From NCBI GenBank assembly GCA_948470905.1, contig CAOKQK010000020.1, forward strand, positions 1 through 46,592: a DNA stretch of 46,592 bases, read 5' to 3'. Both the position numbers and the translations under genes were made by a program. Origin of the DNA: an uncultured Lachnospiraceae bacterium. Its GTDB lineage: Bacteria > Bacillota > Clostridia > Lachnospirales > Lachnospiraceae. The notes under the pieces are model-generated. The model made no database searches. It saw only the letters and a program-made list of their open reading frames with translations, and was not told the origin of the DNA. This document shows, piece after piece, positions 30,372 through 35,936 of the stretch (position 1 is the first letter of the stretch; each line of letters begins with the position of its first letter).

Positions 30372-32141
30372 TTGAATGATTCAGTATTGACAGAGGTATA
30401 TCCTGTGGGCAGGTTTGACAGCGCCCTGATGGTGCAGGACGGCAACAGGCAGGTATTTGAGCTCTTGGGAGAATATCTCTATTCGCCGCTTTATAAGATG
30501 GTCCTGAAGAAGGATGTGGGACGCCTGGAAGCAGCAGTGAAGGGCTGCACAGAGGAAGAAGCTGTGGACGAATGTGTACAGCTCATAGACGCCCAGGGGG
30601 AGTACGAAAAATATATTGTCAGCGTGCGCAGGGACGGCAGCGAAGGGTATTATATTGAGTTTCAAAATGTTTCTGTCGATAAGCAGCAGGCGAAAAGTTT
30701 TAAGAAAAGGCTTCTGATGGCGGACGATTTCCTGACGGTTGCAGGTAATCTCTTTTTTACGTATACACCCCGGCTTAATCATTTTCATATGTTCTGGGTG
30801 AATGATGAGCAGAAAGTCGATGTGTTCAATACCAACCTTGACGAATGGATGGATCAGATGACAGGCGGCAACCTGGTCATGGGGCAGGACAGGGAGGTCT
30901 TCGAGATGTTCTGTGAGGTCCTGCGGGAAGCAGAGCACGGCCATACGTTTCGTTTTCGCGGGAGCATCCTCAACAAGGGAGAGAGCAGGGATGCCTACAG
31001 GATAAAATTCCTTCCCCGCGTATATGACGGCGAGAAGGTAGTTTTGGGGACGTGGACGGTCATCAATGAGCAGACGGGCAATGAGGTTGAGGATTACGTG
31101 GAGGGGAGCTATGTGGATCCCCTGACGAGGATATTGAACAAGCGGGCCATTACAGAGTATGCGGAGGAGGCGGCAGCCTCAGGGGAGAAGATTGCCCTTG
31201 CCCTGATAGATATAGATAATTTTAAGGATGTGAACGATACCTACGGGCATCTGTTCGGGGATCAGGTGATCGCTGCCACCGCAGACATAGCCAGAAAGGT
31301 CGTTGGGGAGAAAGGGGCCGTAGGGCGTATTGGCGGCGACGAGTTCATGGTGGTGATGAAGCGGTATGAAGATGAGCTGGACCTGCGCAATTACCTGCGG
31401 ACGATCAAGACCAGGGTGGCGTCGCTTTTTCAGGACAGGCTCAATGGGAACAGGATCTCCTGCTCCATTGGCGCGGCGCGTGCGGGCATTGACGCCGATA
31501 ATTACAAGGACCTGTTCCGCATTGCCGACAAGGCGCTCTATATCGCCAAGCAGAAAGGCAGGAACCGCTTCATTATTTATAAGCCGGAGCTGCACGGCCA
31601 GTTTAATGTCTCCGATGATGACTATGACATGACAGAGATCAGGGACACCTTTTATTCCGCCAAGGATATGAACAGGCTCAACGAGCTGCTGGCGGACACG
31701 ATCATAAACGGCAGCAGCCGTCTGCCCGGTCTGCTGGAGCATGCGGCGCATACCCTGATGCTGGACAGGCTGTTCATCGTATGGGGAGAGGAGAGGCAGG
31801 TGCTTGCTGCATATCCGGCAGAATATAAGCTGACGGAGGACAGCCGCGACATATTGGAGGGACAGCAGTATCAGCAGATGTTCCATAACGATATGCTGAT
31901 GATAACAAATGTCAATATGCTGGAGTACAGTATGCCGGAGGCTTATGGTCTTTACCGCGGAAACGGGGTTCTGAGCCTGATGCAGCATCTTCTGAGAGAT
32001 CGCGGGGGCAGGTGCATTGGCATGATGATGGCGGAGGAATGTACCAATATGAGGCATTTCCCTCAGCTTGCACAGCAGCTTTTTGAAAGTATGTGCCATA
32101 TTGTCAATGCGGTATTGATAAAAGAAGGGCTTGACAAGTGA
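30372..32141 (+). CDS. GGDEF protein with N-terminal PAS-like and C-terminal GAF-like regions
   Basis: A 589-residue soluble protein; no membrane helix is evident. Residues about 1-230 resemble one or two PAS-like modules (for example FRFRGSILNKGESRDAYRIKF). Residues about 240-400 form a GGDEF domain with the canonical motif GRIGGDEFMVV and DNFKDVNDTYGHLFGD for GTP binding. The residues where RxxD would lie read GEKG, so no inhibitory site. The last ~180 residues may be a GAF-like domain (weak, by secondary-structure pattern only). The start is TTG 30372 after GGGGGG. It lies divergent from another GGDEF gene, and its last codons contain the promoter of ileS. Confidence 0.82.
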   Translation: MNDSVLTEVYPVGRFDSALMVQDGNRQVFELLGEYLYSPLYKMVLKKDVGRLEAAVKGCTEEEAVDECVQLIDAQGEYEKYIVSVRRDGSEGYYIEFQNVSVDKQQAKSFKKRLLMADDFLTVAGNLFFTYTPRLNHFHMFWVNDEQKVDVFNTNLDEWMDQMTGGNLVMGQDREVFEMFCEVLREAEHGHTFRFRGSILNKGESRDAYRIKFLPRVYDGEKVVLGTWTVINEQTGNEVEDYVEGSYVDPLTRILNKRAITEYAEEAAASGEKIALALIDIDNFKDVNDTYGHLFGDQVIAATADIARKVVGEKGAVGRIGGDEFMVVMKRYEDELDLRNYLRTIKTRVASLFQDRLNGNRISCSIGAARAGIDADNYKDLFRIADKALYIAKQKGRNRFIIYKPELHGQFNVSDDDYDMTEIRDTFYSAKDMNRLNELLADTIINGSSRLPGLLEHAAHTLMLDRLFIVWGEERQVLAAYPAEYKLTEDSRDILEGQQYQQMFHNDMLMITNVNMLEYSMPEAYGLYRGNGVLSLMQHLLRDRGGRCIGMMMAEECTNMRHFPQLAQQLFESMCHIVNAVLIKEGLDK

Positions 32142-32160
32142 AAATTTATGGAGCTATAAT
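32131..32160 (+). promoter_or_regulatory. promoter of the ileS T-box leader
   Basis: Perfect TTGACA (32131-32136) and perfect TATAAT (32155-32160) with an 18-bp spacer. The -35 overlaps the last codons and stop of the GGDEF gene. Transcription near 32167 starts the T-box. Confidence 0.88.
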
Positions 32161-32166
32161 GTCATA

Positions 32167-32620
32167 AAATACAAATGCGCAGACGAAGAAAGTAATTGCC
32201 CAGAGAACGTAACAGCGAGCCGGCGGCGGTGTGAGGCCGGTACAAGTAGCAGGGCAGTGAAGATCACTTCCGAGCAGCCAGGGCGAAAGGAAATCCGGGA
32301 GAAATTCGGGGCTTCCCTGTAGTTTTGGACGGTGTTCCCCCGTTACGGGAAGCCATATAATTCTTCTAGTATATCATTGCGTTAATCTTGAAGTAATCAG
32401 TGCTTGATGCTTGCGTCAGCGCAAGGCGGCGGAAGGAGGCGATGCGGTGGACACGCCACCTGACAACAACGCAGCGATGGCGTGAGCAGCGAATGCTGAT
32501 TACTCAAGAATTAATGCAATGATGTACTAGCCTTTTGGCAGGGGAACGTATGATGTAATAGGTGGTACAGCGGGAATGTGTAAGTCTCGTCCTTTTACAA
32601 GGGCGGGGCTTTTTCTTTTA
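32167..32620 (+). promoter_or_regulatory. ileS T-box riboswitch, interrupted by a 165-bp element
   Basis: A tRNA-sensing leader controlling isoleucyl-tRNA synthetase. Stem I carries the GA-type AGTAA segment (about 32191), the conserved GAGCCGGCGGCGGTGTGAGG apical region (32216-32235) and the specifier ATC (Ile) at 32263-32265, in the context GAAGATCAC. Stem III is visible as GGACGG/CCGTTA (32327-32345). The T-box sequence TAGGTGGTACAGCG lies at 32559-32572. A terminator stem follows: 32582-32594 pairs with 32599-32611 (13 pairs, 3 of them G-U), then TTTTCTTTT. Between stem III and the T-box sequence, 32366-32530 is foreign repeat DNA. Uncharged tRNA-Ile would be expected to stabilise the antiterminator. 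Confidence 0.92.
32366..32530 (+). mobile_element. MITE-like element, copy 1 (165 bp)
   Basis: The ends are CTAGTA and TACTAG. The left arm (32366-32400) and right arm (32496-32530) are imperfect inverted repeats, matching at about 31 of 35 positions. The interior shares blocks with the copy at 41103-41268, including GCAAGGCGG, GAAGGA, GCGATG and ACAACGCAGC, in opposite orientation. It encodes no protein. It resembles a non-autonomous palindromic mobile element. It lies within the ileS T-box. Confidence 0.8.
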
Positions 32621-32633
32621 TCATCAAGCGCAG

Positions 32634-32764
32634 AGACGGAACTTAAAACACAACAGTCTTGCAGCGGAAGCCCCCGGGAGATTTTTCAGATGCTGTGTTG
32701 CAGCTGAAAATTACTCCCCCACCAGGGGGGCTGAAGGGGCTGAAGCGAAAGACGGAACTTAAAA
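32634..32764 (+). repeat. direct repeats around a long hairpin in the ileS 5' region
   Basis: AGACGGAACTTAAAA occurs at 32634-32648 and again at 32750-32764. Between them lies a long imperfect hairpin: AGCCCCC...ATTTTTCAG pairs with CTGAAAATT...GGGGGGCT, with a loop around 32690-32703. It is downstream of the T-box terminator and ends 16 bp before the ileS start. The right arm, GCAGCTGAAAATTACTCCCC, resembles sequence next to the second MITE-like copy (about 41269-41300). Confidence 0.7.
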
Positions 32765-32780
32765 TAAGAAAGGAGCAAAT

Positions 32781-35700
32781 ATGTACAAACAGGTTTCTAC
32801 TGATCTAAATTTTGTGGAGCGCGAAAAAGCAATCGAAAAATTCTGGAAGGACAATAACATCTTTAAAAAGAGCATTGACAGCCGCAGGGAGGGCCCGGTC
32901 TACACCTTCTATGACGGGCCGCCCACAGCGAATGGAAAGCCTCACATCGGGCATGTGGAGACACGCACGATCAAGGACATGATCCCCAGATACCGCACCA
33001 TGAAGGGCTGCATGGTGCCCAGAAAGGCGGGGTGGGATACCCACGGCCTGCCTGTGGAGCTGGAAGTGGAGAAGCTTCTGGGGCTGGACGGTAAGGAACA
33101 GATCGAAGAATACGGGCTTGCGCCTTTTATCGACAAGTGTAAGGAAAGCGTCTGGAAATACAAGGGGATGTGGGAGGATTTCTCCGCCATCGTGGGTTTC
33201 TGGGCAGATATGGATGATCCTTACGTTACCTACAGCGACGAGTATATTGAGTCCGAGTGGTGGGCGCTCAAGACCATCTGGGACAAGGGACTTTTGTACA
33301 AGGGCTTCAAGATCGTGCCCTACTGCCCCCGCTGCGGCACGCCCCTGTCCAGCCACGAGGTTGCCCAGGGCTATAAGGCGGTGAAGGAGCGTTCCGCAAT
33401 CGTGCGCTTCAAGTGCGTTGGCGAGGATGCCTATTTCCTTGCCTGGACCACCACGCCCTGGACCCTGCCCTCCAATGTGGCGCTCTGCGTACACCCGGAA
33501 GAAGCCTACTGCAAGGTAAAGGCGGCGGACGGCAATGTCTATTATATGGCGCAGGCGCTGCTGGACACTGTGCTGGGCAGGCTCGCCCAGGAGGGAGAGC
33601 CCGCCTATGAGGTGCTGGAGGCTTATGCCGGCAGGGAGCTGGAATACAGGGAATACGAGCCTCTCTTTGCCTGCGCGGGCGAGGCGGCAAAAAAACAGAA
33701 TAAGAAGGGACATTTTGTCACCTGTGACACGTATGTCACAATGACGGACGGCACGGGAATCGTACACATTGCGCCTGCTTTCGGTGAGGATGATGCCAAT
33801 GTAGGCAGAAAATACGACCTGCCCTTTGTGCAGTTTGTGGACGGCAGGGGCGATATGACAGCGGAGACGCCTTATGCCGGCAAGTTCGTCAAGGACGCGG
33901 ATCCGGATATCCTGAAGGATCTGGACAAAGAGGGGAAGCTTTTTGCCGCGCCCAAGTTCGAGCATGATTATCCCTTCTGCTGGAGATGTGACACACCGCT
34001 CATTTATTACGCGCGCGAGTCCTGGTTTATCAAGATGACGGCGGTGAAGGACGATCTGGTCCGCAACAACAAGACCATCAACTGGATCCCTGCCTCCATC
34101 GGAGAGGGGCGCTTCGGCAACTGGCTGGAGAATATCCAGGACTGGGGCGTGTCCAGGAACCGTTACTGGGGCACTCCCTTAAATATCTGGGAATGTGAGT
34201 GCGGGCACATGCAGTCCGTGGGCAGCCGTGAGGAGCTGTGTGCTTTGAGCGGCAGCCAGGAGGCGAAGACGGTAGAGTTTCACAGGCCCTACATTGATGC
34301 CATCACCATCCCCTGCCCCAAGTGCGGCAGGGAAATGAAAAGGGTGCCGGAGGTCATTGACTGCTGGTTTGACTCAGGGGCAATGCCCTTTGCCCAGCAT
34401 CACTATCCTTTTGAGAATAAGGAGCTGTTTGAACAGCAGTTCCCTGCAAAATTCATCTCGGAGGCAGTGGATCAGACCAGAGGATGGTTCTATTCCCTGC
34501 TGGCGGAATCCACCCTGCTCTTTAACAAGGCGCCCTATGAGAATGTCATTGTGCTGGGGCATGTCCTGGACGAGAACGGACAGAAGATGAGCAAGTCTAA
34601 GGGCAATGCGGTGGATCCCTTTGAGGCGCTGGAGGAGTTTGGCGCAGACGCCATCCGCTGGTATTTTTATACAAGCGCCGCGCCCTGGCTGCCCAAGCGC
34701 TTCTCTGGCAAGACGGTCATGGAGGGCCAGCGCAAGTTCATGGGCAAGCTGTGGAACACCTACGCGTTCTTTGTGCTGTATGCCAACATCGACGGTTTTG
34801 ACGCCGCCAGGTACAAATTGGAATATGATAAGCTCCCTGTTATGGATAAGTGGATGCTCTCCAGGCTCAACAGCGTGGTTGCGGAGGTGGACGAGGACCT
34901 TGACAAGTACCGGATCCCCGAGGCGGCTAAGGCGCTGCAGGATTTTGTGGAGGACATGAGCAACTGGTATGTCCGCCGCAGCCGCGAGCGCTTCTGGGCA
35001 AAAGGCATGGAGCAGGATAAGGTCAACGCCTATATGACGTTGTACACCGCCCTTGTTACCATCTCCAAGGCGGCGGCGCCCATGGTCCCCTTCATGACGG
35101 AGGAAATCTATCAGAACCTTGTGCGCACCAGCTTTGCGGATGCGCCGGAGAGTATCCATCTCTGCGAATTCCCTGTGTCCGAGGGGGCGCATATCGACAG
35201 GGAGCTGGAGGCTGACATGGAGGAGGTCCTGTCCGCGGTGAACATGGGCCATGCCTGCCGTGAGGATGCCGGGATCAAGAACCGCCAGCCGCTGAGCCGC
35301 ATGTATATCAAGGCTGCCCTGGAGCTGGGCGACTTCTACAAAGATATCATTGCGGATGAACTGAATGTGAAAGAGGTAGTCTTTACCGACGATGTGAGAA
35401 GCTTTACTACCTATACCTTTAAGCCGCAGCTTCGCACCGTGGGCCCTAAATACGGCAGGCAGCTGGGGGGGATTCAGAAAGCTCTGGCAGCCCTGGAGGG
35501 AAATGCCGCCATGGATGAGCTGAACGCCAGCGAGGCGCTGAAGTTGCAGGTGGACGGCGTGGCGGTGGAGCTGAAAAGGGACGACCTGCTCATCGATATG
35601 ACCCAGAAAGAGGGCTATGTGTCCCAGGAGGACAATAAGATGACGGTTGTGCTGGACACGAACCTCACCGAGGAGCTGATTGAGGAGGGCTTTGTCTACG

Positions 35701-35936
35701 AGATCATTAGCAAGATTCAGAACATGCGCAAGGACGCCGGGTTTGAGGTCATGGACCACATTAAGGTCTCTCTTAACGAAAATGAGAAGCTGAGCGCCCT
35801 GGCACAGAGAAACAGCGCGGCAATCTGCGGGAAAGTGCTGGCGGACGTGCTGACATCAGGAGAATCCTTCGCAGTGTCAAAGGAATGGGACAATGTAAAC
35901 GGGGAGAGGGTTGTGATCAGTCTGGAAAGGCTGTAA
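32781..35936 (+). CDS. ileS: isoleucyl-tRNA synthetase, long (eukaryote-like) type
   Basis: It charges tRNA-Ile with isoleucine. The 1051-residue class I synthetase has the HIGH motif at residues 55-58 (NGKPHIGHVE) and KMSKS at about 602-606. The CP1 editing domain (about 200-420) includes TTTPWTLPSN and DGTGIVHIAPAFGEDD. A C-terminal anticodon-binding domain follows. Features such as AGWDTHGLPVELEVEK and the absence of the C-terminal zinc finger place it in the IleRS2 group, which includes eukaryotic enzymes and mupirocin-tolerant bacterial forms. AAGGAGC precedes the ATG. It is controlled by the T-box upstream and is probably monocistronic. Confidence 0.97.
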   Translation: MYKQVSTDLNFVEREKAIEKFWKDNNIFKKSIDSRREGPVYTFYDGPPTANGKPHIGHVETRTIKDMIPRYRTMKGCMVPRKAGWDTHGLPVELEVEKLLGLDGKEQIEEYGLAPFIDKCKESVWKYKGMWEDFSAIVGFWADMDDPYVTYSDEYIESEWWALKTIWDKGLLYKGFKIVPYCPRCGTPLSSHEVAQGYKAVKERSAIVRFKCVGEDAYFLAWTTTPWTLPSNVALCVHPEEAYCKVKAADGNVYYMAQALLDTVLGRLAQEGEPAYEVLEAYAGRELEYREYEPLFACAGEAAKKQNKKGHFVTCDTYVTMTDGTGIVHIAPAFGEDDANVGRKYDLPFVQFVDGRGDMTAETPYAGKFVKDADPDILKDLDKEGKLFAAPKFEHDYPFCWRCDTPLIYYARESWFIKMTAVKDDLVRNNKTINWIPASIGEGRFGNWLENIQDWGVSRNRYWGTPLNIWECECGHMQSVGSREELCALSGSQEAKTVEFHRPYIDAITIPCPKCGREMKRVPEVIDCWFDSGAMPFAQHHYPFENKELFEQQFPAKFISEAVDQTRGWFYSLLAESTLLFNKAPYENVIVLGHVLDENGQKMSKSKGNAVDPFEALEEFGADAIRWYFYTSAAPWLPKRFSGKTVMEGQRKFMGKLWNTYAFFVLYANIDGFDAARYKLEYDKLPVMDKWMLSRLNSVVAEVDEDLDKYRIPEAAKALQDFVEDMSNWYVRRSRERFWAKGMEQDKVNAYMTLYTALVTISKAAAPMVPFMTEEIYQNLVRTSFADAPESIHLCEFPVSEGAHIDRELEADMEEVLSAVNMGHACREDAGIKNRQPLSRMYIKAALELGDFYKDIIADELNVKEVVFTDDVRSFTTYTFKPQLRTVGPKYGRQLGGIQKALAALEGNAAMDELNASEALKLQVDGVAVELKRDDLLIDMTQKEGYVSQEDNKMTVVLDTNLTEELIEEGFVYEIISKIQNMRKDAGFEVMDHIKVSLNENEKLSALAQRNSAAICGKVLADVLTSGESFAVSKEWDNVNGERVVISLERL

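Follow-up and report, generated by a model that had tools for sequence, protein, structure and literature searches.

A CTAG-bordered MITE-like repeat within Stem III of an isoleucine T-box leader upstream of ileS

The T-box leader of the essential gene ileS in the DNA analysed here, a stretch of 46,592 nucleotides from an uncultured gut bacterium of the Lachnospiraceae (hereafter the window), is interrupted by a 165-bp inverted-repeat element. By sequence comparison, this element is a dispersed repeat with CTAG borders, a sister copy has an empty counterpart in a related genome, and the site of interruption lies within Stem III of a leader whose other parts are present. We consider it likely that a non-autonomous MITE-like element, from a family restricted to one genus, transposed into a CTAG in Stem III and that the leader still senses tRNA-Ile.

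The ileS leader and its parts

The leader, the element and the gene comprise the following features.

32131..32160, + strand: sigma-70-type promoter of the ileS leader, TTGACA-18-TATAAT (12 of 12 consensus matches)
32171..32597, + strand: ileS T-box leader with an insert of ~161 nt (RF00230, model positions 1-219 of 219)
32263..32265, + strand: specifier codon ATC (Ile) in Stem I, read in the sequence GTGAAGATCACTTCC
32328..32351, + strand: Stem IIA/B pseudoknot region, with the F-box CCGTTA at 32340-32345 (F-box; UUCCC/GGGAA complementarity)
32354..32369, + strand: 5′ strand of Stem III (CATAT, then TTCTTCT) through the left CTAG (emptied-leader folds; Stem III of relatives)
32366..32530, + strand: MITE-like palindromic element, CTAG at each end (inverted repeat, dispersed copies, fold, borders)
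32527..32552, + strand: right CTAG (32527-32530) and 3′ strand of Stem III, GCC TTTT GGC, AGGGGAA, GTATG (emptied-leader folds)
32557..32572, + strand: T-box sequence AATAGGTGGTACAGCG, 5′ side of the antiterminator (RF00230 alignment)
32582..32611, + strand: intrinsic terminator, 13 pairs, then a T-run (terminator prediction)
32781..35936, + strand: ileS, 1051 aa, intact (sole full-length match in the assembly)

The promoter is the sole promoter-like match in 32100-32800, with shuffled sequences averaging 0.6 matches of any quality. RF00230 matches the leader with an E value of 1e-16 and 76.4 bits, the Rfam gathering score being 93, and a scan of the window at the gathering score returned no T-box match. 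That score is reached by 10 of the 32 T-box rows in three genomes of the genus, and the window's ileS T-box scores above the element-free ileS T-boxes of G001 (65.9) and G038 (58.8). A cmscan at the gathering score also returned no match in 20 relative loci, which we did not count as absence.

The specifier ATC fits the downstream aminoacyl-tRNA synthetase gene. A preliminary description of this DNA had proposed a palindromic 165-bp element at 32366-32530, inserted as a mobile-type repeat into an isoleucine T-box, with the ATC specifier before it and the T-box sequence and terminator after it. The coordinates are right, the flanking parts are where they were said to be, and dispersed copies, CTAG borders and a T-box match with an insert of ~161 nt bear out the insertion. 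By contrast, the structure before 32350 earlier labelled stem III corresponds to the Stem IIA/B pseudoknot and its F-box: we assign GACGG..CCGTTA (32328-32345) to IIA/B on the T-box domain anatomy, including Stem IIA/B and the F-box, given in a T-box review (PMC7583486). The UUCCC loop of IIA/B pairs with a downstream GGGAA, and by eye both covary in several relatives (for example, L111, L117 and L128).

For comparison we collected 110 ileS loci and dropped two without an ileS alignment (L053 and L071), leaving 108 upstream regions, which include truncated ones, ones without a recognized T-box and repeated genomes (for example, L051 and L074). An F-box, a T-box and an ATC specifier-like motif occur jointly in 65 of the 108. 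No second ileS was found in the window's own assembly, which is 89.9% complete; the remaining matches, at two further loci, are partial, with 25-32% identity, and presumably belong to other synthetases.

The stretch from the terminator to ileS contains a second dispersed repeat (32634-32764), with a 15-bp direct repeat, AGACGGAACTTAAAA, at each end. It has at least 20 matches in the own genome, the window copy included, and some in G019, G020, G021 and G026.

A dispersed family with CTAG borders

The two arms of the element (32366-32422 and 32474-32530) are 57 nt each and 74% complementary. Its 165 nt have a predicted fold of −86 kcal/mol against a mean of −46.5 kcal/mol for shuffled sequences (z −10.5; none of 200 shuffles as good), which supports, at the level of prediction, the earlier suggestion that it folds independently. 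The base of the hairpin comprises 26 base pairs with one bulge. No open reading frame of at least 80 aa lies inside the 165 bp, and a promoter borne by the element was rejected for want of any promoter match inside it.

The sequence matches 19 places in the own genome, counting the window copy; six are nearly full length, at 89-100% identity, and several others cover the inner core only. With at most 8 candidates scored per genome, at least 9 of 99 genomes (own included) match, all within 61 genomes of one Acetatifactor-like genus of the Lachnospiraceae. Among the matches listed, full-length copies above 80% identity are found in G000, G001 and G038, and copies of 75-76% identity over ~139 nt in G026 and G047. 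A 28-nt pattern for the ends occurs 18, 64 and 59 times in G000, G001 and G038, respectively, and its reversed control not once; at least 27 pairs of ends in G038 face each other at full length. The G038 copies examined are nearly identical though at different sites, which suggests that the family has recently been active.

The copies also vary in a manner consistent with a shared hairpin. Across 14 aligned copies, 92.4% of cells are paired (0 of 500 shuffles as good), 9 of 67 pairs have changed on both sides (7 of 500) and the covariation score is 0.163 (0 of 500); further pair types do not exceed the shuffles (363 of 500).

Terminal inverted repeats, short length, non-coding sequence and many dispersed copies are all MITE traits. 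We use the name MITE-like because a matching autonomous transposon was not found in these incomplete drafts, with DDE_3 as the transposase searched for. No facing ends 0.3-3 kb apart, as an autonomous partner would have, occur among the end-pattern matches listed. DDE_3 was absent from three of four draft genomes (G000, G038 and G021) and present in G001 as one IS630-type fragment whose ends are unlike those of the element; an IS630 parent with shared ends was rejected on this search.

Several related observations were made alongside. The IS630-type fragment of G001 (L222, L272) is itself CTAG-bordered and sits beside sequence that also flanks element copies in G038. Elements of equal size with CTAGTAC ends and different arms occur at L014, L015, L172 and L034; by eye, one of these types shares the core around GGAGGCGATGCGG, and in another the core hairpin is similar but reads CGTAGC..GCTACG instead of CGATGC..GCATCG. 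The element at L220 (1495-1659) appears by eye to be chimeric, its left arm of one type and its right arm of another.

The borders are regular. Across 41 distinct insertions, CTAG is found on the left in 38, on the right in 35 and on both sides in 34, counts that are biased because part of these loci were retrieved with the CTAG pattern; the length between ends is 158-160, or 174 in three. Among loci found by similarity (L001 to L043), 17 of 24 have CTAG on both sides. Two of the six nearly full-length copies in the own genome have exact CTAG on both sides, and the other four deviate on at least one side, to CTGG, CCAG or CGAG. In at least five cases, judged by eye, a copy lies directly against another element and the two have one CTAG in common.

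We searched for empty sites with 14 joined flanks against 61 genomes, taking the best 4 candidates per genome. The site of the G038 copy in L156 is empty in G006, which is collinear with it on both sides at 88% identity and has a single CTAG there; G014 has CCGG at the same insertion site. The match of relatives such as G030 and G024 to the flanks of the L037 copy is one-sided, running from the left across a single CTAG. On these comparisons, namely the borders of 34 of the 41 insertions and one two-sided empty site, a target-site duplication is present. An empty site would look the same whether all of CTAG or its TA alone had been duplicated, so that 4-bp and 2-bp duplications are indistinguishable here; if the duplication covers TA alone, the element proper is 32369-32527.

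Position in Stem III and predicted effect on the switch

The element had been thought to occupy the linker between stem III and the antiterminator. Emptied folds and relatives place it within Stem III, the hairpin CATAT..GTATG that follows IIA/B and forms part of the discriminator.

First, the spacing fits. From F-box to T-box the window leader has 226 nt, or 65 nt after subtraction of 161 (the element plus one CTAG). In the 11 best-ranked of the relatives compared, this distance is 62-65 nt in ten cases and 155 in one; across 22 loci the span is 54-155 nt, with 12 at 62-66.

Second, the emptied Stem III has a predicted energy of −14.7 kcal/mol when one CTAG is kept and −6.9 kcal/mol when none is, and CTAG ranks 8th of all 256 possible retained tetramers, tied from 5th to 14th.

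Comparison of the ileS leader among relatives, proposed earlier as a check, finds the element in 1 of 108 upstream regions, the window's own. As the closest ileS leader half is 79% identical among the matches listed (at most 5 candidates scored per genome), the empty ileS site is reconstructed from homologues of other species. A strict Stem III parse matched 51 of the 108 regions; in these, three of five basal pairs are paired in all 51 and the others in 43 and 40, a conservation that is weak proof because the parse itself demands that shape.

Elsewhere, the element core (up to 4 mismatches in 20) is absent from the 19 examined of 31 other T-box places; among these 19, of which cmscan recognized 18 as T-boxes, is every other T-box place of the own genome (10). 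Clostridiales-1 RNA matches below cut-off lie beside T-boxes in G001 (L260, L265).

Comparison of folding with and without the element gives a mixed picture: the element is predicted to fold alone, as had been suggested, but upper Stem III pairing is predicted to be weaker. Terminator pair probabilities are mostly 0.93-1 in both cases (0.35-0.42 for the outermost pair), and the penalty for forcing the Stem III base to form is 1.7 kcal/mol whether or not the element is present. When folding is left unconstrained, adding the element lowers the upper pairs of Stem III from 0.62-0.99 to 0.2-0.32 and the basal pairs, already low, from ~0.11 to 0.04; the base of Stem III, the T-box sequence and the terminator can be found both in the sequence and in the constrained fold. 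With the real element in place, 77% of leader pairing is preserved, against 60 ± 14% with shuffled elements, so that self-folding is predicted to help the leader modestly. Because 12 of 100 shuffles do as well and leader pairing suffers no more at 54 of 69 other positions, folding does not explain why this site retains the element, and the idea of a structurally unique insertion site is not supported. The variable top of Stem III explains tolerance better than self-folding does.

In the account that we favour, the element would have entered, by transposition, a CTAG high on the 5′ strand of Stem III, leaving CTAG on each side by duplication of CTAG or its TA. In the transcript it would form its own long hairpin with its ends side by side, turning Stem III into a three-way junction whose base, next to the antiterminator, could still form. 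The leader would keep sensing uncharged tRNA-Ile by antitermination, and tolerance of the insertion would follow from the variable length of the top of Stem III in relatives; a gain for the host need not be assumed. The switch probably still works, as the leader retains its promoter, specifier AUC, F-box, T-box sequence and terminator, and no other ileS was found.

Possible, if somewhat doubtful, is a further role compatible with this account, in which the hairpin serves as an RNase III processing site that alters the stability or length of ileS mRNA. The long, once-bulged helix at its base would suit such a role, and Correia elements are cut by RNase III according to a MITE review (PMC10969869).

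We think it unlikely that the insertion broke the switch, leaving the leader constitutively on or mostly terminated and the level of ileS fixed. Such an outcome would agree with the predicted weakening of upper Stem III and with the indispensability of Stem III for binding the tRNA 3′ end, as given in the T-box review (PMC7583486). Against it stand the T-box sequence, F-box, specifier and terminator, the Rfam score above those of two congener ileS leaders lacking the element, and a Stem III base that is present and no costlier to form.

A more speculative reading, which we regard as improbable, is that palindromic repeats of unrelated families land time and again in Stem III of ileS T-boxes and are built into the switch, with the 161 nt as a delay line. 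If so, the added length would separate the half that captures tRNA from the half that takes the decision, and uncharged tRNA would have longer to bind before the terminator is made.

Other leaders do have long Stem III regions. A looser parse, matching 82 of the 108 regions, had four long rows (L145, L070, L114 and L104) that begin at a wrong upstream motif and were excluded by eye; the longest regions that remain are those of the window (211) and of G026 (173; L062 and L075, the latter being MAG contig CATKYJ010000065.1 from an uncultured Acetatifactor sp.). Part of the G026 leader insert (L273/L075) matches at least 18 other places, in at least 7 of 99 genomes, the best at 81% over 74 nt (E 3e-12). 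The 17 of these 18 matches examined belong to a repeat family distinct from the window element, and both ends of this repeat, GTTACTGTTCAC and GTGAACAGTAAC, occur in 9 of the 17; neither end was found in the G026 ileS leader. The G026 insert is probably a decayed copy of this different family, judging from its sequence, or it may share a motif with it. A third long region, in the G123 ileS leader (L337; 155 nt from F-box to T-box), has no match among the loci compared.

Two readings would do without an insertion at this site. An assembly artefact, with two loci joined at a repeat, is very improbable: the genome is a draft of 157 contigs, some of which end inside element copies, but the two flanks complete one Stem III of expected length, and other genomes share the order of GGDEF gene, T-box and ileS. 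Seven loci (L104, L078, L074, L066, L060, L057 and L051), some of them from the same or near-identical genomes, have a homologue of the window's long GGDEF gene upstream of ileS, at 41-52% identity; this homologue adjoins the T-box in five and is ~1.1 kb away in L074 and L051. We rejected a chimera on this conserved order and the single completed Stem III. A native extension of Stem III, for which the range of F-box to T-box spans might be cited, is highly improbable given the CTAG-bordered copies of the same sequence at many other places, one clean empty site and 107 of 108 ileS upstream regions without it.

Relation to known elements and riboswitches

According to the T-box review, insertions whose function is unknown occur in every T-box domain (PMC7583486). 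One such insertion gains a concrete origin here, a transposable repeat with sharp borders, which makes the origin of riboswitch expansions testable and offers one route by which switches gain parts. The leader suggests that the discriminator tolerates 161 nt atop Stem III.

The preliminary description held that transposable DNA inside a functional riboswitch is rarely described. That is fair, with the reservation that a precedent exists in the pneumococcal trp operon, where a BOX element lies between two T boxes and RNA-seq data led to the inference that the riboswitches still function (PMC3049150). BOX resembles the present case as a small, folded, dispersed repeat in a T-box leader; it separates two T boxes, whereas the window element interrupts a single one, in Stem III. 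We found no report of a MITE inside a single T-box in the open-access literature searched. The MITE review considers it possible that MITEs give rise to riboswitches (PMC10969869), and transposon-borne terminators can turn into attenuators (PMC2965389). Correia and ERIC elements, bacterial MITEs with effects at the RNA level, are likewise short inverted repeats without coding sequence and can be transcribed together with host genes, according to the same MITE review (PMC10969869). The window element differs from them in its family, its CTAG borders, its conserved core and its site inside a riboswitch domain.

With IS630/Tc1-mariner elements and the MITEs derived from them, the element shares a TA/CTAG target. 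IS630 reportedly prefers TA within CTAG, a finding attributed to Tenzen and Ohtsubo in 1991. ISY100, of the IS630/Tc1-mariner group, targets TA and duplicates it upon insertion (PMC2170065). Unlike in those systems, DDE_3 was found in neither the own genome nor G038, and the ends of the G001 fragment differ. Like other transcriptional ileS T-boxes, the window leader has a specifier AUC, an F-box, Stem III, a T-box sequence and a terminator; it departs from them in a Stem III that carries 161 extra, repeat-derived nucleotides.
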